Part shown: in pieces, positions 9,001-48,640 of the stretch
Layout: each line of letters begins with the position of its first letter
Position numbering within the stretch: the stretch's first letter is position 1
IMG/VR virus record: IMGVR_UViG_3300021425_003774
Span: 1 to 54,913 of that record
Reading direction: 5' to 3' (one strand)
Origin: a virus
DNA: 54,913 nt
Notes under the pieces: model-generated
What the model saw: only the letters and a program-made list of their open reading frames with translations
Databases searched by the model: none
Told to the model about the DNA's origin: nothing
Made by a program: the position numbers and the translations under genes

Positions 9001-11627
9001 AGGATTACGGATATGGTATTCGTTCAGCAGGTGGTGAAGGAAACCCATACGGTAACGTATCAACATATAACACCGGCCGAAACGGTTGGTCTGGTTATGG
9101 TATTGGTACTCGATGGACTCTGATGTCAACCGAAGGCAACAACTGGGGTATGCATGATAATACTCGTAGTTGGAACTTCTATTACAACGGTTCATATCAT
9201 AGATTCTATTATGGATATGTTTACTCAAGCGAATCATTCCGTGCTCCAATATTCTATGATTTAGATAACACTGGCTATTATGGAAACTTTGCTGGTGATA
9301 CTAACTGGCAAGGTCTAACAGCTCGTGGTCAAGCAATGATTGGCTTGCAGGGTATGACCAGAAGTGGCGCAATAAGTAACTACGGTAGAAGACCTAATAT
9401 AACAGGTGACTCTAACTATTGGACAGGATCCAAAGGTTGGGGTAGAGTTGATATGAACACAGTTGGTAACTGGGGTTCAGGATTCTTCGACTCATGGTCT
9501 AATCCGCCTAATCAACCTTCAGGTACTTCGCACTGGGTAGGTGTACAAGCATACCATTATTCTAACGGTTCAGCAAGATATGGTTGGCAGATGGCAGGTG
9601 GTCCGATTACCAACCTAAGATTCCGTTCTTCTTGGTCTGGTTGGAGAGCCTGGAGAACAATACCTGTTCTCGATGAAAATAGTGGTAACGGTGGTTCAAT
9701 GTATGCCGGCCGTTATTATGATTCTAATAACACCGGATATTATACTGACCCAGCATCTACTTCGGTAATGAACGTTCTTGATATTCGTGGAGAAATTTAC
9801 AACGATGGTTGGTTCCGAAACGATAACGCAGGTCGTGGTTTATATAATAGTTCAACAGGCAGACACTTCTATAGCCCAGGTTCAAGTTATTGGCACTTAG
9901 ATGGCGGTTCAAGTTCTGGTGGTTTAATTATATACGATCGTTATAACGGTTCACAAGGAAGCGGTACAGGTCGTCGTGGTTACCTCTATTACGATAGTTC
10001 AGGTTTCGGTCTGTTAAACAGTTCAGGTGGTTGGGCAGTTCGTATTAACCCAGGAAGTTCTTATACTGAAATTTATAGAAATCTTTATGTTGGAACTGAT
10101 GTAAGAGCACCAATCTATTACGATAGAAATAATACAGGATATTACTTCAACGGTGCTTCTGCTCATAGCACAAGATTTGAAGGTGTAAGTGCTAGAACAA
10201 TGGCTTGGTTAAATCAGCCAGGTCATACAAGAGATAGCGGTGAATATTACAGAGCAAGACCTCGTATAACAGGTAATACTGATTATTGGACTGGTGCGAT
10301 GGGTTGGGGTCGTCAAGATATGACCAACACCGTTGCCGATTGGGGTTCAGGATTTATTGATTCTTGGAGTAATCCACCTAATCAGCCTTCAGGTACATCA
10401 CACTGGGTCGGAGTTCAAGCGTATCACTATTCTAATGGTGGAAGCCGTTATGGTTGGCAAATGGTCGGCGGACCAATTACTAACTTAAGATTCAGAAGTA
10501 CTTGGGGTGGATTCCGTTCTTGGAGAACAATTCCAGTATTAGATGAGAATAGCACGAATGGTGGATCAATGTATGCAGGTCGTTATTACGATTCTAATAG
10601 TACAGGTTATTATACAGATCCAGCATCAACATCAAATATGAACCAAGTACGTGCATACGTATTTGACTTTAATGGTACAGGCGGTAACTCAGGAAGAGCA
10701 ATCGGTTCTTATCCTTATGAGTTATTCCAGGCTTCGGGTGGTTGGAGTTTCCCATATCCTGATTTAAGAATTAACTATCATACAGGTATTTCGTTAGGAG
10801 CAAATCCAAGTTACGAAGGTATGAGGTTCATGAATGATTATAACTCGAATACTGTTAGATTCCAAGTCAACGGTGGTTCAAGTTATACTTACGCAAATAC
10901 TTGGTTACAAGTTGGCGGTGGTGGTGTCGGTATCTATGATGGATATAACGGTGCTCACTTCTTCCCGAATAACCAAACAAGTTACGGCTCATGGGCAATA
11001 TACGGTAACAGAAGTGGATGGTATGGTTTAGCATGGCCACAACCTACTTGGGATCCTCACCTAATGTTCGATGGAAACGGCTCAGGTGGTATCTATCTAC
11101 AAGGTGGCGGTCGTTGGGTATACTATCATAACCGTAGTAATAACTGTACTGGCTTCGCATCATCAAGTACAGTTTCTGGATATCGTGTTAGAATCAACGG
11201 TTCACTGTATTGTAATGGTAACGTTGTTGCTTACTCTGATGCTCGTGATAAAGATAACATTATTACTATTGACGGAGCGTTAGATAAAGTATTACAATTA
11301 CGTGGCGTTTATTACGATAGAAAAACTAGAAAGCATTTAGTTGATGATCGTGATGAAATATATAAAGGACGTCAACTTGGTATGATCGCTCAGGAAGTTA
11401 AAGATATTGTTCCTGAAGTTGTATCTTATGCCGAAGAAATTGACCAATACGGTCTTGATTATCCTAAGATGGTTGGTTTACTTGTTGAAGGTATTAAAGA
11501 TCAAAACGCTATCGTAAAGAGTCAAGAAGAAACAATAAATAATATGCAGAAAGATATTGACATTCTGAAAGAAATGGTATATAATATGCAATCAATAATG
11601 GAGAATAGTAGCAATGGCACTAATTAA
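1..11627 (+). CDS. Giant tail fibre / adhesin with S74 chaperone (5' partial)
   Basis: The reading frame is open from base 3 to the TAA at 11625, so at least 3874 residues are visible and the true start lies left of the window. The N-terminal visible part has phage-fibre motifs such as DADTVDGLEAAQFLRSD (twice). It is followed by a low-complexity stretch of GNITA/DVTAG-type repeats (about 960-1290). About 27 copies follow of a motif like RYYDSNNTGYYTDPASTS, separated by variable beta-rich domains. Two near-duplicate knob-like modules (about 9470-9740 and 10330-10600) share GTSHWVGVQAYHYSNG and WRTIPVLDEN. The C-terminus is a Peptidase_S74 intramolecular chaperone: the YSDARDK motif places the predicted cleavage Ser at codon 11235-11237, releasing about 130 residues that end in a coiled coil. 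The role is host recognition at the tail or baseplate after trimerisation. Family assignment is firm; the exact T4 equivalent (gp34/gp37-like) is uncertain. Confidence 0.9.
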   Translation, partial: QIRNIGTGDYSITNPQQGNSIEFYDGTAGIVIKYAGSNKLAFTSTGTDFTGLATTTIEGNRILTTADEGAGNGLDADTVDGLQASQFLRSDIADTAAGTITFSQDINVDGNAQIDGTLTVDQGALFKALLRTQQNLQVDGNAVIDGDLTVSGNTTYVNTEEILLSDNIITLNANYTGGSPTENGGIEVERGILANAKLVWNEASDYWQLEANSQVIGRIITTADEGSGNGFDADTVDGLEAAQFLRSDADDTATGNITIEGDLTIGDNAGPAQIIFDGNGINRTLYQAAGEIGFLNSSANWAMKSDVDGDLEVERDVEAGRDVIAQDDITATTGNIAATAGNVTAGADVTAQNNITATTGNITASAGNIAATVGDVTAGDDVTAGDSITAQNNITATTGNITATAGSVDAGTSVSAGTTVTAGTDVIGQRFVDADDNSYLVNPAGDSVMNTIDIDDYVRHNGDTNTYIGFSAEDTVVVGASGTNRLTITPSAVTASVDVYGPRFIDTDNNTYLVDPAGTSVINDISLVGEIIHDGDTNTYLNFVAADQFEIVTGGGQRVLVKNTGVDITGDLDVSGNITAVDGTFTGDLSASRFVDSDNTNYFLDPNSDSVLHSIGIDDYIVHNGDSNTYLGFDGNDNIVFHTAGAERFEINATNITGTVDGIFPNLFASRYYDSQNATYYLDPASNSRLNGIGLVGTIFHDGDTDTFIHFDAANSIEFVAGGNQRFLVQGTYALATNQMRSPIYYDSNNTNYYGDFASTSQMAQIDIDSYIRHRGDTNTYLGFDANDSITFVTGGAERVNITDSLSTFYQPVTVQGAVTADRFVDRQNASYYVNPADAGLAATFAGGIRINAISNYTRYDDNSGDGGIALAGPSDITGTSGTTVAISGQYTSGYALMYLNRIDPTANPFNGGNRFIEFRADGATGGSIRGDSSGNIYQILQSGTNWGFWTSGASEALIVDDSGNVMISNSTAPTYTTGDNTPVVGGALTTSKLHIGGSIQLANNDDAIVIGRGTATFLKDEELGFGWGGGWYMLDGTYIRARNNKHIYTTGSYYGNVYYSYQNTAYYADPDGYSQFAGLDVDDYIRHRGDTNTFLRFPSNDFITLGTNNTARLNISNSTVRARNKFEVYGPGIEIQKGSNGGGVGLTVSDQNSGENPGLSGLQQGSILFYHSDGAVTTGSSAAWYFNSSEATTHYVFGTNSGAAGGNLVPIVTNSGSLGNSSYRWGSLYAGTGNFSGDVTGNNAYFYRYYDRNDATYYADPAGTSYQQYMNINVGNENTGGANSSTIGLMMRGNYNSNTWAHKFHKYDHGGGVPIYLSETIGTGAWQAVQRWGSYTGNSFKSQIFGTLKVDTNIHTPILYDSDNSGYYVNPAGSSRMDTITLDGNAVVLREPTGDYGSLAVDGGGRNGYEGFSIGGRSVFMHNNAGRTGIYNDVDNEWFWYADRNSSMRLMFNGGEQARTESGYFLANNQIRSPIFYDSNNTGYYVDPNNTSRFNAVQALRYYFNHATTYYADAASGDYGSMEVGGQKNGWAGYSIAGQWVLMSPGADRVGIYNDTDNEWSQQWYRNSYTLLYFNGIQQAQTANGYFLANNQMRAPIYYDSNNTAYFGHFDDRSRMRTLELGINALTSSGSYALGISHNNRYSIGFRNTNINGNYPWLVHDNFNFNQKGNRDAFIVHFNGLGDRLNLTEDGDLLISGEMAASNYNLSGGNENISLSKLYTRGAADETLFDGTMYFEKRVIQNMQGAEDYTTNVTSEFVKSPDAPGGSSYVLRTSAYRTFYSDYVEVEPGEEVFGEIHARRISGSGGLLYYGIERFDKDKRPIAGNTGTTYFVTGGNNVTSTSWQTFRNHTTIPTSHTPYNGSDGGGVRYVRLRILYNYNSGGALREFTMPILKRVNYHSNIRTDYDIFASRLYSYQNTGFYIDPDNTSIINDLTADQITANIYYDRGNTAYYNDPASNSNTVKQTMQELVVDAGGRNNSNDATAYFSATNNNDWGVIINKNRSAATEYGLDVRMGSSHSYGIRLLAGGTERYRLNNTYMWHRGQSRAPIFYDSDNTAYYTDPASESRINTLRTAGRVVIGGTFQNNPYNSVSSTRLHFGGGNSDANGNYYIGTNLENYNGNYTKLDLRWHTGIRMGAQAVYGGTRIYNNEDLSTLLFSVGRSDTHTRVESGNLYVMNGDARAQIFYDIQDTNWYANPNGTSRFRELDVENNGSQEVFRAYRYGSGPGNYTAARTINQYGNHSWGIVHEFRIGEPGSQSVPGGTDRPSIMFSTGYNSTTWSVGFGYVDNDFRIKQNHGHINQSWGTERFRINTSGEVIIGNNFYGTNAYFNRYYDRNNTGYYADPASTSVFNAMIFNGDVDFNGGANAINITSSDIRSDGNSSWTGNPGAGVLKIQAHSNRWYIVSNGNSNRIVQFRQNGTDRSYIANDGRLHGVGGTGSQDWRAPIFYDNNDTGYYMDPNSTSNSAIRQRGGTLHGPNTTWGQYLYVGGNGHWTGAYASVAATNGNLHLDARAGYSIYLNNYVGGQTYNIGNFYSDRYYDRNNTSYYGDFASTSYMNDVRANIFYERENTAYYFGSSQGDARMRDVRFNQVRVENGATIESVNGAGRIYMGGNFHIDAQNGLDLYLNYYSGRRTRMFYTSNREGARLDTNGIFYAFSQIRTPLIYDYNNTGYYLDMNNNSRFNDLQLRGLYVTTRYHTGSDFTAGTLVQTSIPATATNGASFVLEATGKSYSGDPPFMFTAQGYLYANTIINYSGQHIGKAGFGTMYMFQYNGVLCFWWPRVSYWNSFAVHVRNANGDDRNLVTSITNSGLPGGRTKERQVAMRTTAMYNVNIGTGDMYATRYYDSNNTFYYGDFASTSRINASNNYGYLTFQNYGVGVTGTYTSTRLQQVFAMGSSYRLPADGNSTANMYGIAWSHPNAGSKGGANQLNDHGMLIINNGSFRAAISSRAVFSADIRSPIFYDWNNTGYYVNPAGNSQLSAVYANNWFRAQGGTGLYFQDYGYGIRSAGGEGNPYGNVSTYNTGRNGWSGYGIGTRWTLMSTEGNNWGMHDNTRSWNFYYNGSYHRFYYGYVYSSESFRAPIFYDLDNTGYYGNFAGDTNWQGLTARGQAMIGLQGMTRSGAISNYGRRPNITGDSNYWTGSKGWGRVDMNTVGNWGSGFFDSWSNPPNQPSGTSHWVGVQAYHYSNGSARYGWQMAGGPITNLRFRSSWSGWRAWRTIPVLDENSGNGGSMYAGRYYDSNNTGYYTDPASTSVMNVLDIRGEIYNDGWFRNDNAGRGLYNSSTGRHFYSPGSSYWHLDGGSSSGGLIIYDRYNGSQGSGTGRRGYLYYDSSGFGLLNSSGGWAVRINPGSSYTEIYRNLYVGTDVRAPIYYDRNNTGYYFNGASAHSTRFEGVSARTMAWLNQPGHTRDSGEYYRARPRITGNTDYWTGAMGWGRQDMTNTVADWGSGFIDSWSNPPNQPSGTSHWVGVQAYHYSNGGSRYGWQMVGGPITNLRFRSTWGGFRSWRTIPVLDENSTNGGSMYAGRYYDSNSTGYYTDPASTSNMNQVRAYVFDFNGTGGNSGRAIGSYPYELFQASGGWSFPYPDLRINYHTGISLGANPSYEGMRFMNDYNSNTVRFQVNGGSSYTYANTWLQVGGGGVGIYDGYNGAHFFPNNQTSYGSWAIYGNRSGWYGLAWPQPTWDPHLMFDGNGSGGIYLQGGGRWVYYHNRSNNCTGFASSSTVSGYRVRINGSLYCNGNVVAYSDARDKDNIITIDGALDKVLQLRGVYYDRKTRKHLVDDRDEIYKGRQLGMIAQEVKDIVPEVVSYAEEIDQYGLDYPKMVGLLVEGIKDQNAIVKSQEETINNMQKDIDILKEMVYNMQSIMENSSNGTN
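960..1290 (+). repeat. Tandem GNITA / DVTAG-type peptide repeats inside the fibre gene
   Basis: The fibre frame here encodes repeated short units of the form D-V/I-T-A-x-x-x/G-N-I-T-A (for example ITATTGNIAATAG, ITATTGNITASAG). The same DNA words, such as acagccacaacaggaaacat, recur at about 1070 and 1190. The period is short and the side chains are small or beta-branched, as in a repetitive beta-solenoid or triple beta-spiral shaft. Repeat expansion or contraction by slippage is plausible. Confidence 0.75.
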
Positions 11628-34527: not shown

Positions 34528-34746
34528 TTATTTTTTAGAGAAATAAGATCGAATCAGAAAGATTCTAGTGTATGCCACTATAGTCATAACTAAAGTGACC
34601 AGAGTGCCCAACATGACAGGGTCAGTAATACCAAACCGTTCTATATAGATATACAACAAAAAGAGGTTTAGAGGGTAATTTATGGCTAGGCCGGTTGCGA
34701 TTTGAAATGAAGTTTCTTTATGAATTCTTTTTGTTTCTGGTTTCAT
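34528..34746 (-). CDS. Small two-helix membrane protein (DUF7220-like)
   Basis: A 72-residue protein starting MKPETKRIHKETSFQIATGLAINYPLNLFLLYIYIERFG, with a second hydrophobic stretch VMLGTLVTLVMTIVAYTRIF. The layout TKR...SFxE/QxxTGxxI-two TM segments-RSYF resembles small phage membrane proteins of the DUF7220 type. It overlaps the hemC stop (ATGA), so it is translated with hemC. It should sit in the inner membrane. The role is unknown. Confidence 0.75.
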   Translation of the reverse strand: MKPETKRIHKETSFQIATGLAINYPLNLFLLYIYIERFGITDPVMLGTLVTLVMTIVAYTRIFLIRSYFSKK

Positions 34747-35585
34747 TTTATGTTTGTGCCGAGTTCACGACCAATAGTAATGTATTCTTCAATAGGTCCA
34801 TGATTAAGACTTAATTGCTGAGTTTCAAAATTCTTTGCTATCATGTGTATTGTCTTATTATCTATATATGAAAGTACACCAATAGGAGTATGACAATCTC
34901 CATCTATTTCTCTTAACATTGCCTTCTCTGCCATTGCACAAAACCAAGTATCAATATGATTCTTTGACCAAAGCTTTGCGAAAATTGCTTCATCACGCTC
35001 ATCGTTTAGCTTACGTGTTTGTAAAGCAATAACTCCTTGATTAGGAGCAGGTATCATATCTGCTGTTCCAAATATTCTACTTGCTTTTATAGTAAGTCCT
35101 AAAGCATCAAGACCTGCCTTTGCTAAAACAATTGCATCATATTCTCCATTTTCTTGTTTCGCAATACGAGTATCTATATTACCACGAATAGGAACAATCT
35201 CTGCACCTGGATAAAGATCCATTAATTGATACATTCTTCTTGGACTGCTTGTACCTATTGTTCTTGGATTAACTGCATTACCTATTAAACAATCTCTAAA
35301 GTCAGCTCTTGGTAATACACAAGGAATATCTAACAAGTGATCGTTATCTCTTGTCATGTCTTTCATTGCATGGCATGCAATATCAATATGATGTTCTATT
35401 AATGCGGCTTCTATTTCTTTTGTGAATACACCCTTTCCACCCATTTCTTGGATTGGTGTCTTTGGGTTAAGATCTGCTGTGGAATCTATAAGGACTTGTG
35501 TTGTGTCAAACTCTAAATGTTTTTGAGCTGCTTTAGTATAGGCAAGAGCAAGCTTTGATTTTCGAGTTCCAATTAATGGTATCAT
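34743..35585 (-). CDS. hemC: Hydroxymethylbilane synthase (porphobilinogen deaminase)
   Basis: A 280-residue enzyme that joins four porphobilinogen molecules into hydroxymethylbilane in heme/tetrapyrrole synthesis. Motifs seen: IGTRKSKLAL (5-14), GKGVFTKEIE (50-59), HAMKDM with the catalytic-type Asp76, GTSSPRR (111-117), RGNIDTR (134-140), PAPNQG (179-184) and GDCHTPIG with Cys231, the residue that carries the dipyrromethane cofactor. All key residues are present, so it should be active. Somewhat shorter than the usual 300-320. The start is ATG 35585 behind AAGGAC, 15 bases downstream of tRNA-Glu, so it is probably cotranscribed with that tRNA. On the early strand, while hemE is on the late strand. 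Confidence 0.95.
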   Translation of the reverse strand: MIPLIGTRKSKLALAYTKAAQKHLEFDTTQVLIDSTADLNPKTPIQEMGGKGVFTKEIEAALIEHHIDIACHAMKDMTRDNDHLLDIPCVLPRADFRDCLIGNAVNPRTIGTSSPRRMYQLMDLYPGAEIVPIRGNIDTRIAKQENGEYDAIVLAKAGLDALGLTIKASRIFGTADMIPAPNQGVIALQTRKLNDERDEAIFAKLWSKNHIDTWFCAMAEKAMLREIDGDCHTPIGVLSYIDNKTIHMIAKNFETQQLSLNHGPIEEYITIGRELGTNIK

Positions 35586-35600
35586 ATTTTGTCCTTATCT

Positions 35601-35675
35601 TGGTAGCCCGTAGGAGAATCGAACTCCTGTTGCATGGATGAAAACCATGTGTCCTAACCACTAGACGAACGGGCC
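35601..35675 (-). tRNA. tRNA-Glu (anticodon UUC), CCA encoded
   Basis: The minus strand folds as a full cloverleaf. The acceptor stem is GGCCCGT/ACGGGCT (one G-T pair), the anticodon stem-loop is CATGG-TTTTCAT-CCATG, and the T arm holds GTTCGATTC. CCA is encoded at 35603-35601. It lies between the large RNA terminator and hemC. Confidence 0.93.
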
Positions 35676-39217: not shown

Positions 39218-39225
39218 TATAAATA
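39218..39225 (+). promoter_or_regulatory. T4-type late promoter TATAAATA of the curli module
   Basis: Exact TATAAATA 37 bases before the first gene of the module (39263). Places the curli genes in the late class with the virion genes. Confidence 0.75.
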
Positions 39226-39262
39226 ACATTGAGGGTTTTTACCTTCCGATTACAGGATACTT

Positions 39263-39559
39263 ATGGAAGAAATATTTCAGCTTATATCAGACGTAGGTTT
39301 ACCTATTGCTGGTGCCCTTACGATGGGATTCTTCATATTCATTATTATTAAACAAATCTTTGAAGGAATCATAGACAGCATCGGCACCTTAACAATGTTC
39401 GCAGAAACATTGGAGAATAGAGCAACCACAATGTCAAATGAGATGATCAAGATTGATCTTCTTGTGAGTAGTGCATTAGGATTAAATCCTGACATCGAAA
39501 GAGTAGCCCGAGCAGAAAATTTTATAGAAGATGGCAAAGTAGACGTAAGAAGAGATTAA
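39263..39559 (+). CDS. Small membrane protein (YvrJ/holin-like), first of a pair
   Basis: A 98-residue protein. Residues 11-35 (VGLPIAGALTMGFFIFIIIKQIF) form one membrane helix with the GLPIA/GFPxA start typical of YvrJ-like and some holin-like small proteins. The remainder is an amphipathic helical tail (GTLTMFAETLENRATTMSNEMIKIDLLVSSALG). It is first behind the late promoter. Possible jobs are a holin or an inner-membrane partner for the curli genes; neither is proven. Confidence 0.68.
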   Translation: MEEIFQLISDVGLPIAGALTMGFFIFIIIKQIFEGIIDSIGTLTMFAETLENRATTMSNEMIKIDLLVSSALGLNPDIERVARAENFIEDGKVDVRRD

Positions 39560-39563
39560 TATA

Positions 39564-39833
39564 ATGGATGTAGCGAGTTTAGTCAGTGAGTATGGCTTTC
39601 CTGCCGTTATGGTAGTAGGTCTTGGGTATTTTGTATATTTTGTGTGGAATTTCGTTAACACAAAATTACAGCCTGAGATTGATAAGCAACACATGGCTTT
39701 AATCAAATTGATAGATAGAATGAGAATGTTAGATCAAGACTTAATACGATTACAACAGAAAGTTGATGTTGTACTGAAATATCGAGAAATTGAAGAATTG
39801 AAGAAAAAAGGTGAAAAGACTAATGAAGATTAA
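39564..39833 (+). CDS. Small membrane protein with coiled coil, second of the pair
   Basis: An 89-residue protein. SEYGFPAVMVVGLGYFVYFVWNFV is a membrane helix with the same G-F/L-P-x-x start as the previous gene, so the two are probably distant paralogues. A basic/acidic coiled coil follows (IDKQHMALIKLIDRMRMLDQDLIRLQQKVDVVL), like the hinge region of T4-like or lambda-like accessory proteins. It overlaps csgF. Topology would be N-out/C-in or the reverse; the sequence does not decide. Confidence 0.68.
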   Translation: MDVASLVSEYGFPAVMVVGLGYFVYFVWNFVNTKLQPEIDKQHMALIKLIDRMRMLDQDLIRLQQKVDVVLKYREIEELKKKGEKTNED

Positions 39834-40320
39834 TGGAACACATTTAGGATTGCTTGTAATAAGTTTCTATTTCACTGCGCAAGTCTGTGCAGAACCTATA
39901 GTACACAAATTCAAAAATCCGTCATTTAGCGGAGTAGGTACTGGTGCTCATTATTTAACAATTGAGAATCAGGAACACTCAAGAAAAGAACAAATCAAGG
40001 ATGCTATGGAAGCAGCCGAGAGAGCAGCACAACGAGAATTAGATAACTCGACACTTTCGAAGTTTATAAGAAACCTTGAAAGTAGAATTTATGCTCAGTT
40101 AGCAAAACAGTTAGTGGACAATATGTTCTCTAACGATAATGCAGTAAGGTTTGGATCTTTCGTATTAGAAGGATCTACCGTAACCTATGAAGTAATTACG
40201 AATGCAGATGGTACTGAATTTATTAAGATGACAATTGTTGATGAAAATGGTACTACAACTGTTATTGAGATTCCGATAGGAACAGGAAACTTCGGGGGCG
40301 GTGACCCAGATGGCGGCTAA
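39823..40320 (+). CDS. csgF: CsgF-like curli assembly factor
   Basis: A 165-residue secreted protein. ATG 39823 was chosen over GTG 39811 because AAGGTG stands 8-9 bases upstream and a clean signal peptide results (MKINGTHLGLLVISFYFTAQVCA, cleavage after residue 23). The mature N-terminus FKNPSFSGVG matches the FxNPxFGGN motif with which CsgF plugs and extends the CsgG pore. The C-terminus has TYEVITNADGTEF...TIVDENGTTTVIEIP, like the beta domain of CsgF. It should act at the outer membrane or cell surface with CsgG, encoded next with a short overlap. Confidence 0.88.
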   Translation: MKINGTHLGLLVISFYFTAQVCAEPIVHKFKNPSFSGVGTGAHYLTIENQEHSRKEQIKDAMEAAERAAQRELDNSTLSKFIRNLESRIYAQLAKQLVDNMFSNDNAVRFGSFVLEGSTVTYEVITNADGTEFIKMTIVDENGTTTVIEIPIGTGNFGGGDPDGG

Positions 40321-41257
40321 ATTACTTACAGCAATTATGTCAACTCTTATCTTGGCGAGTTGCGCACAAATGCCGCAATGGTCAGAAGGACCTGCGAATT
40401 GTGAATACGGGCAAGGAAGATACGTTGAAGGATTTAACAAAACTCGAGACGAACATGGAGACGGTTTAGTACTTGACCAAATTAATACAGGCGTTCGTAA
40501 ATATGTTGAGACAAAACAAATTTGTGTTGAACAGCCTCAGGTGGTTAAGTTACCTGCCTATATAGATTTACTTAATCTACCTCCTGCAGAAAATAAGCCT
40601 GTAGTAGCAGTATATGGATTTTTAGATAAGACAGGACAAAGAAAAGATTCTGTCACAGGACAGAGTTTCTCCACTGCGGTAACACAAGGTGGAACAGAAT
40701 TATTAATAGATGCTTTGAAAACAGCAGGTGGTGGAACCTGGTTCAGAGTAGTAGAAAGACAAGGTATTGACGCTCTTGTAAGAGAACGTCAAATCATTCG
40801 TTCAGGTCGTGATGAAGCGGCAAAGAAACTGGGCGAAGAATCTAAGGGTGTTGGCCCACTATTGTTCGCGGGAATGATAATTGAGGGCGGCATCATTGGT
40901 TATGATAGTAATGTAAAAACAGGAGGCCGCGGAGCAAGGACGCTCGGAATTGGCTTTAGTAGACAATATCGTCAGGATGTCGTGACTGTCTCCGTACGTG
41001 CAGTATCCGTTCTTACAGGTGAAATATTATTAAACGTCCAAACGAAGAAATCAATTCTGAGTTACGGCTCAGGAGGAGACGTCTTCCGCTTTATAGAGCA
41101 AGGTACTCAGTTGATTGAATACGAGGACGGAGTTGGTAATAATGAAAGTGTAACATACGCGGTACGAACAGCAATTGAAGCTGCCGTGCTAGAGATGGTG
41201 TATCAGGGTCACGAACGTGGCTTCTGGACAATTAACGATAAAAAAGAGGAAGAATAA
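40310..41257 (+). CDS. csgG: CsgG-like outer-membrane curli secretion pore lipoprotein
   Basis: A 315-residue protein. ATG 40310 follows GGTGA and gives a lipoprotein signal peptide with lipobox LASC (Cys18). Clear CsgG landmarks: VAVYGFLDKTGQRKD, FSTAVTQGGTELLIDALK, WFRVVERQGIDALVRERQIIR, GMIIEGGIIGYDSNVKTGGRGARTLGIG, TGEILLNVQTKKSILSYG, GDVFRFIE and ERGFWTI. In bacteria CsgG forms a ring-shaped beta-barrel that secretes curlin subunits (type VIII secretion). All regions are present, including the two transmembrane hairpin segments. Slightly longer than E. coli CsgG (277), with an extra N-terminal stretch. Overlaps csgF, and its stop overlaps the curlin-like gene (TAATG). Confidence 0.95.
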   Translation: MAAKLLTAIMSTLILASCAQMPQWSEGPANCEYGQGRYVEGFNKTRDEHGDGLVLDQINTGVRKYVETKQICVEQPQVVKLPAYIDLLNLPPAENKPVVAVYGFLDKTGQRKDSVTGQSFSTAVTQGGTELLIDALKTAGGGTWFRVVERQGIDALVRERQIIRSGRDEAAKKLGEESKGVGPLLFAGMIIEGGIIGYDSNVKTGGRGARTLGIGFSRQYRQDVVTVSVRAVSVLTGEILLNVQTKKSILSYGSGGDVFRFIEQGTQLIEYEDGVGNNESVTYAVRTAIEAAVLEMVYQGHERGFWTINDKKEEE

Positions 41258-41988
41258 TGATACGTAAAATATTAGGCCTATCTTTATTATGTGCGTTTTC
41301 TTTCAATGCGCATGCGCAAGCGACTGACGACAATGAAATCAATATCGACCAAACTGGTGATACTTTAACATTGTATGTAGATCAGTATGGATATGGTAAC
41401 AAGATCGGATTGGATAACTTTTCAACCGGATCAAGTGCTATGCCGATAACAGGTTCTTCATTAACATTTAATATTGACCAAATAGGAAATGAAAACTTGT
41501 TCTTTGGTACTTATATCGGTGACAGTACAACTGTTAACGCTTTATTTACTGGAGATTCTAACTCTTGGGATTGGAACGTAGGTTATATTGGTTCATCCGA
41601 TACTTCAACAATTGATGTTGATATTACTGGTGATTCAAATACTATGGACTTTGACCAAGGTTATAACGCAAGTGCAGAAAGATTAGACCTTGACTTAACG
41701 GTTATTGGAGACAGCAATATTTTTGATGTTGACATTGACGTTGACGACGCTGTGTGGAATATGGATATCACAGGCGGAAGCAATAACATCAACACAATGC
41801 AGAAAGACGGAGCAGAGCATGAAATTAACTTGACTCACGTTGGGTCTTCTGCTGATATTGATATTAACCAATTATCTGGAACATGCCCTACAGGCGTAAG
41901 TACTTGTAATGGTATTATCACACTAGATATTGATAGTGAAAATGCTACAATCCAAATTAATCAGAAAGACAGTTCAACAGATTCGTAA
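41257..41988 (+). CDS. Curlin-repeat secreted protein 1 (CsgA/CsgB-like)
   Basis: A 243-residue protein with signal peptide MIRKILGLSLLCAFSFNAHA (cleavage after 20). The mature part has about eight repeats of roughly 22-25 residues centred on G-D/N-x-N (ITGDSNTMDFDQ, VIGDSNIFDVDI, ITGGSNNINTMQ, and IDQTGD / VDQYGYGN / IDQIGNEN with curlin-type Q-x-G). This is the beta-strand/turn/beta-strand pattern of amyloid curlins, but more Asp-rich. Two cysteines occur near the C-terminus. Placed directly after csgG, it is the natural substrate of the phage pore. Which of CsgA or CsgB it corresponds to cannot be told. Confidence 0.8.
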   Translation: MIRKILGLSLLCAFSFNAHAQATDDNEINIDQTGDTLTLYVDQYGYGNKIGLDNFSTGSSAMPITGSSLTFNIDQIGNENLFFGTYIGDSTTVNALFTGDSNSWDWNVGYIGSSDTSTIDVDITGDSNTMDFDQGYNASAERLDLDLTVIGDSNIFDVDIDVDDAVWNMDITGGSNNINTMQKDGAEHEINLTHVGSSADIDINQLSGTCPTGVSTCNGIITLDIDSENATIQINQKDSSTDS

Positions 41989-43120
41989 TTCCAGATTCTT
42001 TGTCCTGTCTTTGTGCATGCTTCTGTCACTAGCGGCAAGTGCAAGTACAGGTGCGGCAGAGAATATTGGTGGAATTGTTGAACAGACTGGTAACGGTAAG
42101 ATTGTCCGGGAAGAAGGCGCTGTACTTGATGCGGCCCTTATCCCGGACATTCAACTTAACGATACCGCAGAAACCTCTCAAGGAAGAATGCTTATTCGAT
42201 TCTTGGATGAAGCAGAGCTTTCTTTAACAGAACACACAAAGGTATACATAGATAAAGTATACTACGACCCAGACCCAAGTAAATCAAAAATGGCAATGCG
42301 TATGGCATTAGGCACAGCTCGGTTTGCGTCTGGTCGTTTAGGAATGGTCAATAAGAATAATATTGATATTCAAACACCCACGGCAACGGTATCAGTTCGT
42401 GGAACAGATTTTACAACAACCATTGACGAGTTAGGTAGATCACTTGTAATACTTCTACCTGACCAATATGGTAATCCTTCAGGCGTTATTGATGTAACAA
42501 ATAACGGTGGTACAATTACTTTAGATGAAGCCTACGCTGCTACAATGGTAAGCAGTTTAGATACGGCGCCAACAAGATCAATCACAATGCAAAACATTAC
42601 TCCAACAATGATTGATAATATGTTTATTGTAAGTCCACCACCTGAAGTAAAGGAAGCATTAGAAGAACAATATGAAGACGAATCAAACCAAGATCAAGGA
42701 TTACTTGATTTTGACTTTTTAGAATTCAATGAATTAGAATATGATGCGTTGGAAGAAGATGCTTTAGAATTTACGGAGCTTGACATTGATTATCTTGATG
42801 TTGATTTTTTAACGGACTTATTGGATGTAGTTGAAGAACTTGTAAAAACAACTGCATCTCTTGATGATAGAGCAATATCAGGAAGTTCATTAGGAGCAGA
42901 ATTAAAGGGAGCAACATTCGGTATGAATACTGACTCTCAATATAACATTTATGAATCAGCAGGAAAAATATTCTTTTATAGAAATGTCAATGGAGTAATA
43001 AATATTGCGTTCGCAGTAGATTCTTCGGTTAGGATTGAAACGAATGTAGATGGTTACGAAGGAATCATAGATCTTAACGGAGGAAATGATTCCATAATCG
43101 TAATTAGACAAGGAGGATAA
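41942..43120 (+). CDS. FecR-domain periplasmic protein with acidic repeat segment
   Basis: About 392 residues from ATG 41942, which overlaps the curlin-like gene by 47 bases (TTG 41930 and GTG 41936 are alternatives). The signal peptide is NSRFFVLSLCMLLSLAASAS-type, with cleavage near residue 39. A FecR domain follows: GGIVEQTGNGKIVREEG, LNDTAETSQGRMLIRFLDEAELSLTEHTKVYID, then ALGTARFASGRLG, IQTPTATVSVRGTDF. Residues about 240-300 form an acidic, hydrophobic-alternating repeat (LEFNELEYDALEEDALEF). In bacteria such FecR-domain proteins often lie next to CHASE2-cyclases, and a CHASE2-cyclase is encoded in this operon. The likely role is an envelope ligand-binding or signalling partner. Confidence 0.82.
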   Translation: MLQSKLIRKTVQQIRNSRFFVLSLCMLLSLAASASTGAAENIGGIVEQTGNGKIVREEGAVLDAALIPDIQLNDTAETSQGRMLIRFLDEAELSLTEHTKVYIDKVYYDPDPSKSKMAMRMALGTARFASGRLGMVNKNNIDIQTPTATVSVRGTDFTTTIDELGRSLVILLPDQYGNPSGVIDVTNNGGTITLDEAYAATMVSSLDTAPTRSITMQNITPTMIDNMFIVSPPPEVKEALEEQYEDESNQDQGLLDFDFLEFNELEYDALEEDALEFTELDIDYLDVDFLTDLLDVVEELVKTTASLDDRAISGSSLGAELKGATFGMNTDSQYNIYESAGKIFFYRNVNGVINIAFAVDSSVRIETNVDGYEGIIDLNGGNDSIIVIRQGG

Positions 43121-43123
43121 ATA
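43116..43123 (+). promoter_or_regulatory. Late-like promoter GATAAATA
   Basis: One mismatch from TATAAATA, spanning the stop codon of the FecR gene and 6 bases before the next ATG. A near-leaderless position makes its use uncertain; AGGAGG of the FecR 3' end may simply be the ribosome site. Confidence 0.3.
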
Positions 43124-43128
43124 ATATT

Positions 43129-43914
43129 ATGAAAACTCGTAGTGAACATGAAGAAAGAGCCTGGGCAAGATTTAGAAAACAAACTCCTTATATATGGACA
43201 ACAAAAGACTTAGCACATGTCTTTGCGTTAGGTCTATTATTTGGTATGTTAATGTTAACCCCTTCCGTACTCGCAGACAATTTAATCACAATTGAACAGA
43301 CAGGTGATAATCTAAATTTAGAGATTCAGCAATACGGTGCTGATAACGAAGTTAAAATGTTAGACCAATATTCGTTCATTAATTCATCGTCATTAGATTT
43401 ATTAATTGTTCAATATAATACTACAGGTAATGATAACACAATAGTATTTGATGAAATCAATGGCACAGGTAATGAATTTAAATTAGGACAAGGTGTTGCT
43501 TTTGATAATACCACACAAGGTTGGAATTATGATGGTTACGAAGGTGGTGGTCATTATATGGAAATAGATTTATACGGTAATGATAACTTTGTTGAATGGC
43601 ATCAAACAAATCAAAGTGGTGCAACTGACGGACATGATTTTAACTTACATGTTGCTGGGTCTGATAATTGGATAGATGGAAGACAACAATCTTCAGGCGC
43701 AAAAGAAGCAAACGTTACAATTTACAATTCAGACAATACTTTAACATTCAGACAAAAAGGCGCCAACGCAAACCATACAGCAAATATTACTTTAGATGGT
43801 ATTTACGGAACGGATGCGCTTATCAGACAAAATAGCACAACCAATCAAACATATAACTTATCAGTAGATTGTTATACAGTTGGTGGTTGTTCAGTAAACG
43901 TGATACAAGAATAA
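43129..43914 (+). CDS. Curlin-repeat secreted protein 2
   Basis: A 261-residue protein with an unusually long N-terminal region (about 28 charged residues) before a hydrophobic segment and signal cleavage site LTPSVLA (about residue 49). The mature part has seven or eight curlin-like repeats: IEQTGDNLNLEIQQYGADN, YNTTGNDNTIVFDE, LYGNDNFVEWHQ, VAGSDNWIDGRQQ, IYNSDNTLTFRQKGAN. A C-terminal pair of cysteines (DCYTVGGC) mirrors that of curlin-like protein 1 (TCPTGVSTC). The two may be a nucleator/major-subunit pair. AGGAGG stands upstream. Confidence 0.8.
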   Translation: MKTRSEHEERAWARFRKQTPYIWTTKDLAHVFALGLLFGMLMLTPSVLADNLITIEQTGDNLNLEIQQYGADNEVKMLDQYSFINSSSLDLLIVQYNTTGNDNTIVFDEINGTGNEFKLGQGVAFDNTTQGWNYDGYEGGGHYMEIDLYGNDNFVEWHQTNQSGATDGHDFNLHVAGSDNWIDGRQQSSGAKEANVTIYNSDNTLTFRQKGANANHTANITLDGIYGTDALIRQNSTTNQTYNLSVDCYTVGGCSVNVIQE

Positions 43915-44225
43915 TGGAATTAGATATTTACGGAAATCCAGTAGGAACATTATATCCGGGTGATGAAGGTTGCCCTCAAGATATGATTTGTTTAACCGAA
44001 GAAGGATTTAACCAAATGCTTGCTGAAGCTGATATGCATTACAATGCGGAAACGTTTCAAGTTGAGCCGATGGGCGACGCAGAAGCTATTATAGATTTTA
44101 CAACAGATTTGCTATTTTTAGATATATGGACAATTTTAAATATGGCAGTTCCTTTAACAATATTCGCAGTGTATGGATTGACTCTATATGCTGGATTCAA
44201 ATGGGTACAAAAACAATTTAATTAA
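43914..44225 (+). CDS. C-terminally anchored small membrane protein, unknown
   Basis: The start is ATG 43914 (TAATG overlap with curlin-like 2); a longer frame from 43869 is inside that gene. The product is 103 residues: MELDIYGNPVGTLYPGDEGCPQDMICLTEEGFNQMLAEADMHYN and so on, then a C-terminal helix ILNMAVPLTIFAVYGLTLYAGFKWV. Two cysteines near residues 19 and 25 could form a disulfide. It probably sits in the inner membrane as a module partner. No family recognised. Confidence 0.7.
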   Translation: MELDIYGNPVGTLYPGDEGCPQDMICLTEEGFNQMLAEADMHYNAETFQVEPMGDAEAIIDFTTDLLFLDIWTILNMAVPLTIFAVYGLTLYAGFKWVQKQFN

Positions 44226-44227
44226 TT

Positions 44228-45175
44228 ATGAAAACATTATTACAAAGAACTATTCAGGATAAAGAAGTCAATTTATATCCTGTTTGGTTAATGAGACAAG
44301 CCGGAAGATATATGCCAGAATATATGGCAATGAAAGAAAAATCAAATGGCTTTTTAGATATGGCTCTTACTCCTTGGAAGGCTGCTGAAATTACAATGCA
44401 ACCTATTAAAGAGTTTGATATGGATTGTGCAATTATATTCTCAGACATACTTATTGTGAATTATGCACTTGGTCAAGAATTAGATTATACGCCTGGTCCT
44501 GTTCTTGGACCATATTCAGAAAATTTTTGGAACACAACTTCAGACGAGTTTTACGAAAAGTGTAAATATGTATATGAAGCAATAAAAATAGTTAGAGAAG
44601 AACTTGACGATAGTAAATCTCTAATTGGTTTTGCTGCAGCACCATATACAATATGCAAGTATATGTGTGATGAAAAAAGATTAGATGTGGTACAAAAATT
44701 AGTACCTTATATTATTGAACATCTTTGCATGCAAATTGAAGCAGGATGTGATACAGTACAAATTTTTGATAGTCATGCTTGTGATATATCAGAAGATGAT
44801 TTTTATGAATATGTCATTGAACCAACAAAGCAAATTGTTGATGTAATAAGAGCACATTATCCTGATGTATGTATCATTGCTTTTCCAAGACTTGTTGGTA
44901 CAAAAATAAACGATTACATAGAACAAGTAAATCCTGATGCAATTAATATCAGTGATGATTTGCCTGTGGACGAAATAAATGCAGAAGTCATTCAAGGTGG
45001 CATTTCAGTTAAAAGATTAATAAAAGGAGAAGACATAACGCCAGTTTTAAATAAGATGAAAGACAGGCCGTATATTGTAAACCTTGCTCATGGAATTCAT
45101 AAGACAACTCCAGTTGAACATGTAAGGCAACTTATAAATACGACAAAGATGTACCGTAAACATTTCGGAGCTTAA
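44228..45175 (+). CDS. hemE: Uroporphyrinogen III decarboxylase
   Basis: A 315-residue enzyme converting uroporphyrinogen III to coproporphyrinogen III in heme synthesis. Motifs: PVWLMRQAGRYMPEY (residues 18-32, with the substrate-binding arginines), FSDILIV with Asp73 (catalytic-type), APYTICKYM, QIFDSHACDIS in place of the usual QxFDSWAG, and NLAHGI-TTP-EHV with the conserved His near the C-terminus. Shorter than the usual 340-360 but all key motifs are present. It starts 3 bases after the small membrane protein and so belongs to the late curli transcript, unlike hemC on the early strand. The heme pathway gene hemD is not in the window. Confidence 0.95.
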   Translation: MKTLLQRTIQDKEVNLYPVWLMRQAGRYMPEYMAMKEKSNGFLDMALTPWKAAEITMQPIKEFDMDCAIIFSDILIVNYALGQELDYTPGPVLGPYSENFWNTTSDEFYEKCKYVYEAIKIVREELDDSKSLIGFAAAPYTICKYMCDEKRLDVVQKLVPYIIEHLCMQIEAGCDTVQIFDSHACDISEDDFYEYVIEPTKQIVDVIRAHYPDVCIIAFPRLVGTKINDYIEQVNPDAINISDDLPVDEINAEVIQGGISVKRLIKGEDITPVLNKMKDRPYIVNLAHGIHKTTPVEHVRQLINTTKMYRKHFGA

Positions 45176-45176
45176 T

Positions 45177-45887
45177 ATGAAAGACGAAGTTACGATAGTT
45201 GTCCCGTGTAAAAACGAACAATTTTATATTCATCATTTGCTTGATGGATTAAAGAAACAAAAAGGTATAGAAGGTATAAGAATTTATATCGCAGATTGTT
45301 CAACCGATGACACAAGAAAGGTCATTGAAGATAATAAAGAAAATTTAGATGTTGTTATTATTGAAGGAGGACCTGTTTCAGTTGCTAAAAATAACGGAGC
45401 AGCTTTAGTAACCACACCGTATATTCTTTTCATAGATTCTGATGTTAGATTTTTTTCAAATACAGTAATCTATGATACTCTAAAACAAATGAAAGAAGAA
45501 GATTTACATTTAATAGGATTAAGTATTAAATGTTATGACAATGATTGGAGAGCAAAGATTGGCTTTTCAATGTTTAATGTAGTAAATAAGATATTGTCAA
45601 GATGGATTCCCTTTGCTGTAGGAGCGTATTGTTTAACTCGTAGAGATAAGTTTTATGAGCACGGTGCGTTTCCTTGTAAGTATCCAACATCAGAAGATTT
45701 TCACTTGTCGAGAAAATATGATCCAAAGAAATTTAAACTTGCCAAACATTACTTTGGACAAGACAGTAGAAGATTCAAGCAGATGGGATATTTTGGTATG
45801 TCCTGGTATTTAATTAAAAATTTCTTATATAGAAATAACCAAAAGCATTGGGATAATATAGATGAAAAAAGATATTGGTCATCGTAG
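45177..45887 (+). CDS. Family 2 glycosyltransferase
   Basis: A 236-residue GT-A fold enzyme: VTIVVPCKNEQFYIHHLLDGL, IYIADCSTDDTRKVI (nucleotide-binding Asp), VAKNNGAALVTTPYILFIDSDVRFF with the DSD (DxD) metal motif, and SEDFHLSR as the acceptor-side ED motif. It transfers a sugar from a nucleotide sugar to a lipid or glycan acceptor; the target is unknown. It has no large membrane domain, but its C-terminal region is basic and aromatic and may touch the membrane. Overlaps the LpxH-like gene by 26 bases, so they are coupled and may act on the same lipid or glycan. Confidence 0.88.
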   Translation: MKDEVTIVVPCKNEQFYIHHLLDGLKKQKGIEGIRIYIADCSTDDTRKVIEDNKENLDVVIIEGGPVSVAKNNGAALVTTPYILFIDSDVRFFSNTVIYDTLKQMKEEDLHLIGLSIKCYDNDWRAKIGFSMFNVVNKILSRWIPFAVGAYCLTRRDKFYEHGAFPCKYPTSEDFHLSRKYDPKKFKLAKHYFGQDSRRFKQMGYFGMSWYLIKNFLYRNNQKHWDNIDEKRYWSS

Positions 45888-46602
45888 TGTATTCATTTCA
45901 GATTTACATTTAGGTAGCAAGCACTGCAGAGACGAAGACTTATTAAAATTTCTCAAAGAAGTTAGAACAGAAAAGCTTTATTTGGTCGGTGATATTATTG
46001 ATGGTTGGAGACTTCAGAAAAAATGGTATTGGCCAAACAATCATAATAGAGTAGTTAAAGAACTTATTCGTATTTCAAAATATACAGATGTTTATTGGAT
46101 AAGCGGTAATCACGATGAGTTCTTAAGAACAATTCCAAATATTAATGTAGGTAATATTGAAACACATAATAGATTAACTCATATTGGAGCTGATGGAAAA
46201 AAATATCTTGTAGTACATGGAGATATGTTTGACTATCTAATGAGAACAAAATTTGGTAAAACAGTAATGCATCTTGGTGACTGGGGTTATGATAGATTAA
46301 TCAACATTAATTATATAGTAAATAAAATAAGAAACTTCTTTGGATATAAACCTTGGTCATTAGCAAAATACCTTAAAAGAAAAGCTAAGTTAGCCTCAAA
46401 CTTTATTGGCGAGTTTGAAACAGAAATGGTTAAGTACGCAAGAAAGAAAAATTATGATGGAATTATATGTGGTCATATTCATCATGCAGAAATAAAACAA
46501 CACGACGAAATCACATATATGAATGATGGTGATTGGTGTGAAAGCTGTTCAGCATTAATTGAAGATCACGAAGGTAATTGGAAAATAAATTATTATGCTT
46601 AA
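45862..46602 (+). CDS. Metallophosphoesterase, LpxH/UDP-diacylglucosamine-hydrolase-like
   Basis: A 246-residue calcineurin-type phosphoesterase with all metal motifs: ISDLHLGS (residues 12-19), VGDIIDGW (42-49), SGNHDEF (78-84), VHGDMFD and GHIHHAE near the C-terminus. The DGWRLQKKWYWP segment and overall size are those of the LpxH-related family that removes UMP from UDP-2,3-diacylglucosamine in lipid A synthesis, or related membrane phosphatases. Coupled to the glycosyltransferase upstream and overlapping the cyclase gene downstream. A role in lipid or LPS remodelling is likely but the substrate is inference. Confidence 0.85.
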   Translation: MKKDIGHRSVFISDLHLGSKHCRDEDLLKFLKEVRTEKLYLVGDIIDGWRLQKKWYWPNNHNRVVKELIRISKYTDVYWISGNHDEFLRTIPNINVGNIETHNRLTHIGADGKKYLVVHGDMFDYLMRTKFGKTVMHLGDWGYDRLININYIVNKIRNFFGYKPWSLAKYLKRKAKLASNFIGEFETEMVKYARKKNYDGIICGHIHHAEIKQHDEITYMNDGDWCESCSALIEDHEGNWKINYYA

Positions 46603-48640
46603 ACAATTAACCAAGTGGTGGACAGTCTTATTTACAATCGCAGGATTTGCTTCTTTAAGTATTATTAACCCAAATATAATTCAAAGTATAGAATACGCTT
46701 ATTATGATACCTTACAGCAAAATAAAGAAAAAGAAATTATTGAAGACATTGTACTCGTCAACATCGACGAAAAAGCAATCGCTGCCAAAGGTCAGTACCC
46801 TTGGCCTCGTGGTTCAATTGCTGATTATTTACGCGACGGTCCTGACGATAGCCTTTATGTTCTTAACGTAATATATTCTGAAGAAGATAGATTTGGGGAA
46901 GACAACTTACTTGCATTTGAAATGCAACAAAAGGCGGTGGTGTTGGCATCAGCACCATCACAACAAATAACCGGAGGAGTAGGCAACTTTGTTGGAGTTG
47001 CTACGTTTGGAGAACAAAATGAAAATTGGCTTTACTCGTTCCCAGGTTTATTATATCCTGTGGATCAAATTAGTAGTTGGGCTTTTGGTGTTGGGGCCAC
47101 TGTTAGCATACCTGACCAACCCACAGGAGTCGTGCGAAGGTCGCCGCTCGTTATACAAGCAGCCGGGAATTCCTACCCATCTCTCGCCCTCGATACCTTA
47201 CGTGTGTACACAGGAGAACCAAGCTACCAAATGAAGGTAGGCACCAATGGTGTTGAATGGGTAAGAATAGGAAAGCAAGATCCTATTACAACAAATAGCT
47301 TTTCTGAATTACCAATTGCGTTTTGGAATCAATTTGAACAAATAAGTATCACCGATCCTTTACCTAGTGGAAAGGTTCTTATCTTCGGAGTAACAGCCGA
47401 AGGTGTCTCTAATCCAGTTTCAACCCCAACGGGTGCAATGTATCCCCACGAAGTTCAAGCACATCTGATTCAGACCGTTCTTTCAGGAGTTGAAATAAAA
47501 ATTCCCGACTGGTCTGCAATATTTGAGCTTTTCTTTTTGGTGGTTGTATGTCTAGGAATCCTTGGAGCGGTCTATGGATTGCCCATAATTCCTGGGGTGA
47601 TAACATCTCTTCTTCTTGTCGGGTCCGGATACGGAGTAAGCTGGTGGCTTTGGAGCGACTCACTAACATTTGTTGACGCATCTTTGATTTCATTAGGTTC
47701 CTTAGTGGTGTTTGCACAATCATCGTTCAACAATTACTATTTAACATTTTTAGAAAAGCGGGCAATCATGAAACAGTTTGCCGGTTATTGCTCTCCAGAA
47801 GTTGTTACTATTTTACAACAAAATCCTTCTCTTGTCAAGGATGGAATGAAGAAAGATGTAAGTATTGTATTTAGTGATCTTCGAGGATTTACTCCATTAG
47901 GCGAAAGCTTCGGCGATGATGTTAGAGGGCTGACTACTTTGATGAATGGTTATATGGATGCTATTACACAACCTGTTCTAGATGCAAATGGAATGATCAT
48001 AAAGTATATTGGAGACGCAAGTATGCATATACATAATGCTCCAATGGAAGATAACGATCATGCAAAGACTGCAGTCCAAACTGGTATTAATATGTTAAGA
48101 GCGGTGGAAAAATTTAATGATAAGATTACAAAAGAAGGAAGGCCTCCAATTGGTATGGGGGCTGGGATTAACAGTGGCTTGGGTTATGTTGGTGAGATGG
48201 GTTCTACAAGTCGACATAGTTATGACATCCTTGGAGATTCTGTTTCAACAGCTGCACGAATTGAGTCTAAATGTAAAGAATATGGTTGCTTATTATTAGT
48301 TGGAGAAGAAACGGTTAGTAGATGTAATCCTGAAGAGTTTCTTTTCTTAAAGGTAGATGATCTTGCTGTGAAAGGAAAATCAGTAGGAGTTGGAATATAC
48401 ACAGTGTTGGACTTGGTAAAAGATAAATACAATAAACCAGCAGAAATGCATGAAGCGATGCATTCAAATTATCAAAAGCAAAACTTTGATAAGGCGATCA
48501 AAATATGTAATGACCTTATGGATTGCTTCGAAGGACAAATGCAAGGTTATTATAAAATGTGGATTGAGCGTTGTGAATATATGAAAACGCAAGATTTGCC
48601 AAAGGATTGGAATGGAGTTTTTATCGCGACCACTAAGTAG
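46595..48640 (+). CDS. CHASE2-domain class III adenylate cyclase
   Basis: A 681-residue protein. An N-terminal membrane helix (LFTIAGFASLSIINP) is followed by a periplasmic CHASE2 sensor (about 30-300: IVLVNIDEKAIAAKGQYPWPR, GAMYPHEVQAHLIQTVLSG), then about three membrane helices (310-400), then the cyclase domain (about 420-600). Active-site residues by spacing against mycobacterial Rv1625c: metal Asp428 (FSDLRGFT) and Asp474 (KYIGDAS), adenine-specifying Lys470 and Asp544, transition-state Arg555. The transition-state Asn is replaced by Ser551. The Lys/Asp pair points to ATP, so cAMP is the expected product if active. A helical C-terminal tail follows. Very unusual in a phage. Overlaps both neighbours. 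Confidence 0.9.
   Translation: MLKQLTKWWTVLFTIAGFASLSIINPNIIQSIEYAYYDTLQQNKEKEIIEDIVLVNIDEKAIAAKGQYPWPRGSIADYLRDGPDDSLYVLNVIYSEEDRFGEDNLLAFEMQQKAVVLASAPSQQITGGVGNFVGVATFGEQNENWLYSFPGLLYPVDQISSWAFGVGATVSIPDQPTGVVRRSPLVIQAAGNSYPSLALDTLRVYTGEPSYQMKVGTNGVEWVRIGKQDPITTNSFSELPIAFWNQFEQISITDPLPSGKVLIFGVTAEGVSNPVSTPTGAMYPHEVQAHLIQTVLSGVEIKIPDWSAIFELFFLVVVCLGILGAVYGLPIIPGVITSLLLVGSGYGVSWWLWSDSLTFVDASLISLGSLVVFAQSSFNNYYLTFLEKRAIMKQFAGYCSPEVVTILQQNPSLVKDGMKKDVSIVFSDLRGFTPLGESFGDDVRGLTTLMNGYMDAITQPVLDANGMIIKYIGDASMHIHNAPMEDNDHAKTAVQTGINMLRAVEKFNDKITKEGRPPIGMGAGINSGLGYVGEMGSTSRHSYDILGDSVSTAARIESKCKEYGCLLLVGEETVSRCNPEEFLFLKVDDLAVKGKSVGVGIYTVLDLVKDKYNKPAEMHEAMHSNYQKQNFDKAIKICNDLMDCFEGQMQGYYKMWIERCEYMKTQDLPKDWNGVFIATTK

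Follow-up and report, generated by a model that had tools for sequence, protein, structure and literature searches.

A probable type VIII (curli) secretion operon behind a conserved late promoter in a T4-like myophage fragment

The DNA analysed here (the window) is a linear fragment, 54,913 bases long, of a marine virus. Family matches to T4-type tail sheath, tube, portal, prohead protease, scaffold, major capsid and large terminase proteins identify it, on sequence grounds, as a fragment of a T4-like myophage. It carries on the plus strand an operon of 12 genes (39263-48640), most of which overlap their neighbours or are separated from them by no more than about 12 bases. Two small membrane proteins (39263-39559 and 39564-39833) are followed by CsgF (39823-40320), CsgG (40310-41257), a curlin-repeat protein (curlin 1, 41257-41988), a FecR-domain protein (41942-43120), a second curlin-repeat protein (curlin 2, 43129-43914), a 103-aa protein (43914-44225), the uroporphyrinogen decarboxylase HemE (44228-45175), a family 2 glycosyltransferase (45177-45887), a calcineurin-like phosphoesterase (45862-46602) and a CHASE2 class III nucleotide cyclase (46595-48640). 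The original prediction had recognized the curli genes, FecR and the cyclase correctly; the extent it gave to the module was too short, since the operon continues well past its end, and hemE and the glycosyltransferase and phosphoesterase genes went unmentioned. An Rfam search of the vicinity of the operon detected two tRNAs only and no riboswitch.

An exact match to the T4-type late promoter, TATAAATA, is located at 39218-39225 (plus strand), 45 bp upstream of the first gene, and a second one (45133-45140, plus strand) lies 44 bp upstream of the glycosyltransferase start. The window contains nine exact copies of TATAAATA, all on the plus strand and none on the minus strand; each is followed by a gene start at a distance of 18-71 bp, and seven of the nine precede genes of the structural block. 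This is the promoter characteristic of the T4-like late gene set. Among near relatives, 48 of 66 distinct upstream regions contain exact TATAAATA within 200 bp ahead of the curli operon, as do 47 of 76 such regions among more distant relatives. The chance rate, estimated from the opposite strand, is about 0.004 per upstream region, or about 0.3 for the 66; the late promoter at the curli operon is conserved far above chance. An exact promoter copy ahead of the operon, placing a curli module under phage late control, had been predicted, and both its presence at 39218 and its conservation in related phages agree with that prediction. Late expression of the operon, as judged from the promoter motif, is supported. 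In an earlier study, late promoters of these phages had escaped detection (PMC7029224).

At 25 of 45 operon promoters an ATG follows the start of the motif at a distance of exactly 13 or 14 bases; among other late sites, 10 of 77 show a spacing of exactly 13. The late TATAAATA element of T4 occupies positions from about -13 to -6. With the spacing found here transcription would begin at the start codon, and it is possible that these operons give rise to leaderless late mRNAs.

The timing bears on one of the functions considered for such modules (PMC9599517), superinfection exclusion or protection, in which a fibre coat would mask receptors or trap competing phages. Surface fibre machinery would suit this role, and in the window the operon is shared with two envelope-modifying enzymes, the glycosyltransferase (PF00535, E=2.4e-15), which was found in one other locus only, and the phosphoesterase (PF00149, E=8.1e-15). 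Known exclusion genes of T4-like phages, however, act early, whereas the promoter found here is a late one, which speaks against an early-acting exclusion system; we consider this explanation unlikely.

The genes for the secretion apparatus were assigned as predicted, both passing the Pfam cut-offs easily: the product of 40310-41257 is CsgG, an outer-membrane lipoprotein pore (PF03783, E=3.1e-54), and that of 39823-40320 is CsgF (PF10614, E=4.4e-16, 59.7 bits against a cut-off of 25.8; phrog_35372). In a phmmer comparison CsgG aligned with the solved E. coli CsgG over residues 80-314 (235 residues, E ~1e-47). Its lipobox (LILASC followed by A) is intact, as had been noted before, and is kept in relatives. 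In the window clade the part of CsgG between the lipid anchor and the core is some 45 residues longer than in the E. coli protein, and the constriction loop retains Phe56 but not the Tyr51 and Asn55 of E. coli; the loss of these two residues would count against a function in curlin export. CsgF did not match any solved structure by sequence. Its signal peptide is followed by an N-terminal FKNPSFSG, which is conserved in relatives. The FxNPxF start of E. coli CsgF inserts into the barrel, and the phage protein keeps this start.

A search for the CsgE plug (PF10627) yielded no match in the whole record at E<=10, in line with the original prediction that csgE is not in the window; a missing plug would also count against export. 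CsgE is reported to be absent from phage and alphaproteobacterial modules as well (PMC9599517), and for this reason it is not a defining component of this branch. Since the window is a linear fragment, the absence of csgC, csgD and csgE is uninformative about the rest of the genome.

The two predicted substrates were more weakly recognized. When the whole proteins were compared with PF07012, curlin 1 gave E=5.7e-4, 0.5 bit below the cut-off, and curlin 2 gave E=1.3e-3; in the genome-wide search both were above the cut-off, with matches at 41326-41412 and 43276-43356. Of 49 relatives aligned with curlin 1, 42 matched the same family. Both proteins have signal peptides by inspection, so that the prediction of signal-peptide curlin-repeat proteins in the operon holds for two genes. 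Shuffled sequences would be expected to contain 0.9 curlin-type strand motifs for curlin 1 and 1.5 for curlin 2; the observed numbers are six and five. The AlphaFold2 model of curlin 1, built from 47 aligned sequences, is an all-beta stack (pLDDT 82, pTM 0.78), for which Foldseek returned no significant solved match and only non-significant beta-helix matches; the fold therefore supports a repetitive beta protein and nothing further. Given the weak single matches and the lack of a solved match for curlin 1, polymerisation is a prediction. With a CsgG pore carrying a lipobox, CsgF and exported curlin-repeat proteins, the components that define type VIII secretion are all encoded in the operon.

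About 240 viral loci were compared, and counts were restricted to loci with enough flanking sequence. The near set comprises loci close to the window, and the distant set, which includes contigs above 230 kb, was reached from the CsgG proteins of phages Melnitz and HTVC008M. A csgG match in 'Salmonella phage S.Kent 1-2-1' looked like bacterial contamination and was discarded. In the near loci CsgF was present in 85/85, small protein 1 in 79/79, small protein 2 in 84/84, curlin 1 in 77/77, FecR in 69/69, curlin 2 in 66/66 and the cyclase in 50/50. The distant loci had CsgF in 115/115, a curlin in 94/94, FecR in 69/69, the cyclase in 29/30 and the small pair in 34/45, the latter sometimes a few kilobases away. 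None of the flanked loci (94/94 distant, 77/77 near) carried a module consisting of the pore only. As all sets were drawn by CsgG similarity, these numbers inform on the companions of CsgG and not on phages without it. In a small sample of four cellular alphaproteobacterial curli loci, similarity comparison revealed neither FecR nor a cyclase nor the small pair next to csgFG.

In comparisons with near relatives, dN/dS was 0.06-0.15 for CsgG, 0.03-0.19 for CsgF, 0.07-0.13 for curlin 1, 0.10-0.22 for FecR and 0.12-0.18 for the cyclase, these ratios being rough because dS is near saturation in many pairs. Selection acts to keep all the module proteins for which dN/dS was computed. Among the core proteins of the module, curlin 2 varies most (mostly 0.21-0.37, with one pair at 0.63), as would be expected of an exposed main subunit.

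The two small proteins at the head of the operon (98 and 89 aa) belong to the same family (phrog_18771, E=5e-23 and 6e-26) and have one hydrophobic segment each, combined with a conserved RRD end in the first and with a coiled-coil-like helix in the second. One or two 'histidine kinases' have been placed before CsgF in related modules (PMC9599517). We rejected this reading for the leading pair, compared with the published genes by position: none of 36 family members (the two window proteins and 34 relatives) matched a kinase family in Pfam. A weak YvrJ match was seen in 2 of the 36. The family was absent from 298 other Pseudomonadota genomes, the lone exception among 299 being a bin that holds phage contigs, and on this distribution the pair is classed as a phage-specific accessory.

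For phage Melnitz it was proposed that the pore serves lysis or depolarisation (PMC9004378). In such a scheme CsgG and CsgF would form a gated pinholin- or secretin-like pore timing lysis, with the small pair as holin-like partners. The late promoter, the one-segment membrane proteins heading the operon (with their two weak YvrJ matches) and the failure to find a CsgE plug would all fit. According to its published description Melnitz has neither csgA nor csgB (PMC9004378), but in its deposited record csgG is accompanied by FecR, a cyclase and two proteins annotated with curlin-associated repeats, so this premise fails for Melnitz itself; in HTVC008M, too, one curlin-repeat protein is annotated next to csgG. 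The complete lack of pore-only modules in the flanked loci removes the main premise of the idea, and CsgF and the curlins are under purifying selection. An outer-membrane pore by itself, moreover, would not depolarise the inner membrane. A lysis pore is therefore quite improbable.

The FecR-domain protein (PF04773, E=3.7e-8) most likely starts at ATG 41942 rather than at TTG 41930. It consists of about 40 basic and hydrophobic residues, forming a signal or anchor, the FecR domain, an acidic linker and a curlin-like C-terminal strand (IIVIRQGG). In Foldseek the domain matched the anti-sigma FecR domains PupR and BDI_1681 with probability 1.00, and thus a periplasmic FecR domain is indicated by both family and fold. 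A cytoplasmic N-terminal sigma-binding part preceding the membrane segment was not found. With only a signal or anchor segment before the domain there is no room for such a part, and a FecI-type anti-sigma or iron regulator was ruled out.

A different partner is suggested by genomic context. When 11-kb stretches were searched with a FecR profile, 11 of 20 alphaproteobacterial loci had a FecR ORF no further than about 5 kb from CHASE2 genes, compared with 0 of 18 control stretches from the same genomes. (A FecR regular expression gave no match in 4-kb CHASE2 loci, which were too short for the purpose, and the pattern itself was overly strict.) Campylobacterota carry the same FecR/CHASE2-cyclase cluster (PMC9239204). 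In view of this bacterial linkage, FecR and the cyclase are best read as a bacterial signalling pair joined to the curli genes, and not as an iron regulator. As in the bacterial clusters (PMC9239204), an exported FecR-domain protein in the window adjoins a CHASE2 class III cyclase; the difference lies in the C-terminus, which is an IxIxQ(G/N) strand in 39/39 phage FecR sequences and in 0/11 of the alphaproteobacterial FecR ORFs near CHASE2 genes.

The cyclase (PF05226, E=9.8e-30; PF00211, E=6.4e-18) retains both Asp motifs that bind metal, together with the Lys and Asp expected in an enzyme using ATP. In the window clade Ser takes the place of the Asn in VNxAxR, which makes cyclase activity in this clade uncertain; a second cyclase type, occupying the same operon position in other phages, has the Asn. 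We tentatively suggest that FecR may act as a built-in fibre sensor or cap, although we regard this as doubtful. Its curlin-like strand would bind or join the growing fibre in the periplasm and the FecR domain would signal to the CHASE2 cyclase, so that host cAMP would rise if curlin is exported.

Between curlin 2 and the cyclase the window carries genes with narrower distribution. The 103-aa protein, for which ATG 43914 is preferred over TTG 43869 as start, has one C-terminal hydrophobic segment and occurs at the same place in 23 related loci. HemE (PF01208, E=3.3e-70) is encoded inside the operon in one lineage, with hemC nearby. A direct search for hemE gave eight viral contigs, in seven of which the cyclase is next; most matches to hemE and hemC in phage collections looked like bacterial contamination and were set aside. 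These genes touch on the proposal that CsgG is an uptake channel for larger nutrients, siderophores or tetrapyrroles (PMC7029224 and PMC9599517). The presence of hemE and hemC (a tetrapyrrole and iron theme), the name of FecR and the missing CsgE plug would agree with uptake, but hemE was found in only 11 near loci, and FecR, having no space for a sigma-binding part, is not a FecI-type iron regulator. Uptake would require neither CsgF nor two secreted substrates, yet these are always present, and such constant cargo speaks against a bare pore, whether for lysis or for uptake. We regard an uptake channel as very improbable.

Taking together the conserved late promoter, CsgG with CsgF, two curlins, an exported FecR protein and a CHASE2 cyclase, we consider it likely that the operon is a complete phage-borne type VIII (curli) system through which, late in infection, amyloid-like fibres are formed on the infected cell. 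The host Sec and Lol machinery would put CsgG into the outer membrane, CsgF would cap the pore, and the curlins would cross it and polymerise outside. In the periplasm the tail of FecR may touch the substrate or the fibre, and FecR may signal to the cyclase through the CHASE2 sensor, with a rise in cAMP as the result. Cells close to lysis, or their ghosts, could then use sticky fibres to hold new hosts near the released progeny; we favour this purpose, already published as 'sibling capture', with low confidence. No clumping was seen in OM43 cultures infected with Melnitz (PMC9004378), which counts against fibres. Of the purposes listed in the original prediction surface fibres fit best, lysis by the pore only has lost its main premise, and superinfection exclusion has become less likely.

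The closest published counterpart is the Pelagiphage type VIII system (Wittmers et al. 2022, PMC9599517), in which one or two small leading genes are followed by CsgF, CsgG, CsgA/B, FecR, CsgA/B and an adenylate cyclase, without CsgE, CsgC or CsgD. The same order from CsgF to the cyclase is found in the window. The window differs in having the 103-aa protein, hemE, the glycosyltransferase and the phosphoesterase between curlin 2 and the cyclase, and in its leading genes, which gave no match to any kinase family although those at this position in the published module were labelled histidine kinase. Melnitz (OM43) and HTVC008M (SAR11) are likewise T4-like myophages (Kyanoviridae) with CsgF, CsgG, curlins, a FecR-like protein and a cyclase in one operon; their CsgG proteins are 48-52% identical to that of the window and shorter (278-280 aa compared with 315), and their operons have no hemE. 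The GenBank record of Melnitz carries the same module as the window. With the csgBAC and csgDEFG operons of E. coli the window shares the CsgG core, CsgF and curlin repeats, whereas its substrates are longer (243 and 261 aa), its operon includes FecR and a cyclase, neither CsgE nor CsgD was found, and of the constriction residues only Phe56 is kept.

Curli-like genes in SAR11 and OM43 myophages had been mentioned in the original prediction and are indeed published (PMC7029224, PMC9004378). The combination of two substrates with FecR and a cyclase, which it singled out for closer study, is not unusual: it was described in 2022 (PMC9599517), and hundreds of viral contigs have it as a rule. The literature already covers phage curli genes, sibling capture, the module complete with FecR and cyclase, its expression in metatranscriptomes and its spread between myo- and podophages (PMC7029224, PMC9004378, PMC9599517). 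In the papers searched, we found no earlier account of the late promoter conserved at the operon, of the lack of pore-only modules across many loci, of the curlin-like tail of FecR or of the hemE insertion, nor was the kinase label questioned there.

Phage curli modules are common in the ocean, occurring in hundreds of contigs. Opinions in the literature differ as to whether such modules produce fibres or just a pore; our linkage and promoter data favour fibres made late. If FecR does sense export, the phage would have a second-messenger loop that responds to export in late infection. Should infected plankton cells form amyloid before they lyse, both the meeting of progeny with new hosts and the aggregation of debris would be affected.

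The window phage carries both hemE (44228-45175, + strand; PF01208, 3.3e-70) and hemC (34743-35585, - strand; PF01379, 7.1e-58), and inspection showed that the active-site motifs of these tetrapyrrole genes are retained (hemE/hemC: FSDIL, RQAGRY; GDCHTPIG). A tRNA-Glu(UUC) gene (35601-35675, - strand) directly adjoins hemC. Because glutamyl-tRNA is the precursor of tetrapyrroles in the C5 pathway, this adjacency may or may not be due to chance. By direct search viral hemE was detected on only 8 contigs, and on 7 of these the curli cyclase gene follows hemE immediately. Viral hemC was present on 29 contigs, several of which have a curli operon nearby. Porphobilinogen deaminase of a pelagimyophage is mentioned in PMC7029224; no paper on phage hemE was found in a literature search. 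Elsewhere in the window, a 3,572-aa open frame (909-11627, + strand) has several tail-fibre and baseplate-wedge matches along its length.

Curli contigs of the phage type were also present in bacterial genome bins (loci L082 and L084-L087, and L083 in the Rhodobacteraceae bin Water_Bin34, G001). The latter bin contains four copies of CsgF, adjoined by the pair of small membrane proteins that is otherwise found only in phages, and the curli attributed to such bacterial bins may be misassigned. OR851715.1 and other OR84/OR85 records (H7, H13, H21 etc.), all very short (1.5-15 kb), unannotated and labelled 'phage', have matches to the csgG, hemE and hemC of bacteria; they appear to be bacterial sequences that have contaminated the phage collection.

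In the window and loci L001-L087, the T4-type late promoter motif TATAAATA starts exactly 13 bases 5' of an ATG in 19 of the 45 curli sites and 14 bases 5' of it in a further six; among other late-gene sites the 13-base distance was found in 10 of 77. The 13-base spacing suggests that late mRNAs in these phages may be leaderless.

The position at the end of the operon (46595-48640 in the window, and its counterpart in related loci) is held, depending on the phage, by one of two distinct class III cyclases, of the FSDLRGF/YDILGDxVS or the FMDIxGF/YSVIGDAVN type. This pattern would fit a need for some cyclase at that place, with the enzyme itself swapped over time. Related csgF-csgG-curlin-FecR modules, in which the small membrane pair is displaced or absent and the distance to the cyclase is variable, were found on viral contigs of up to 337 kb (L207-L256; the largest, L245, has 337,119 bases), and thus the curli module also occurs outside the SAR11/OM43 myophages.
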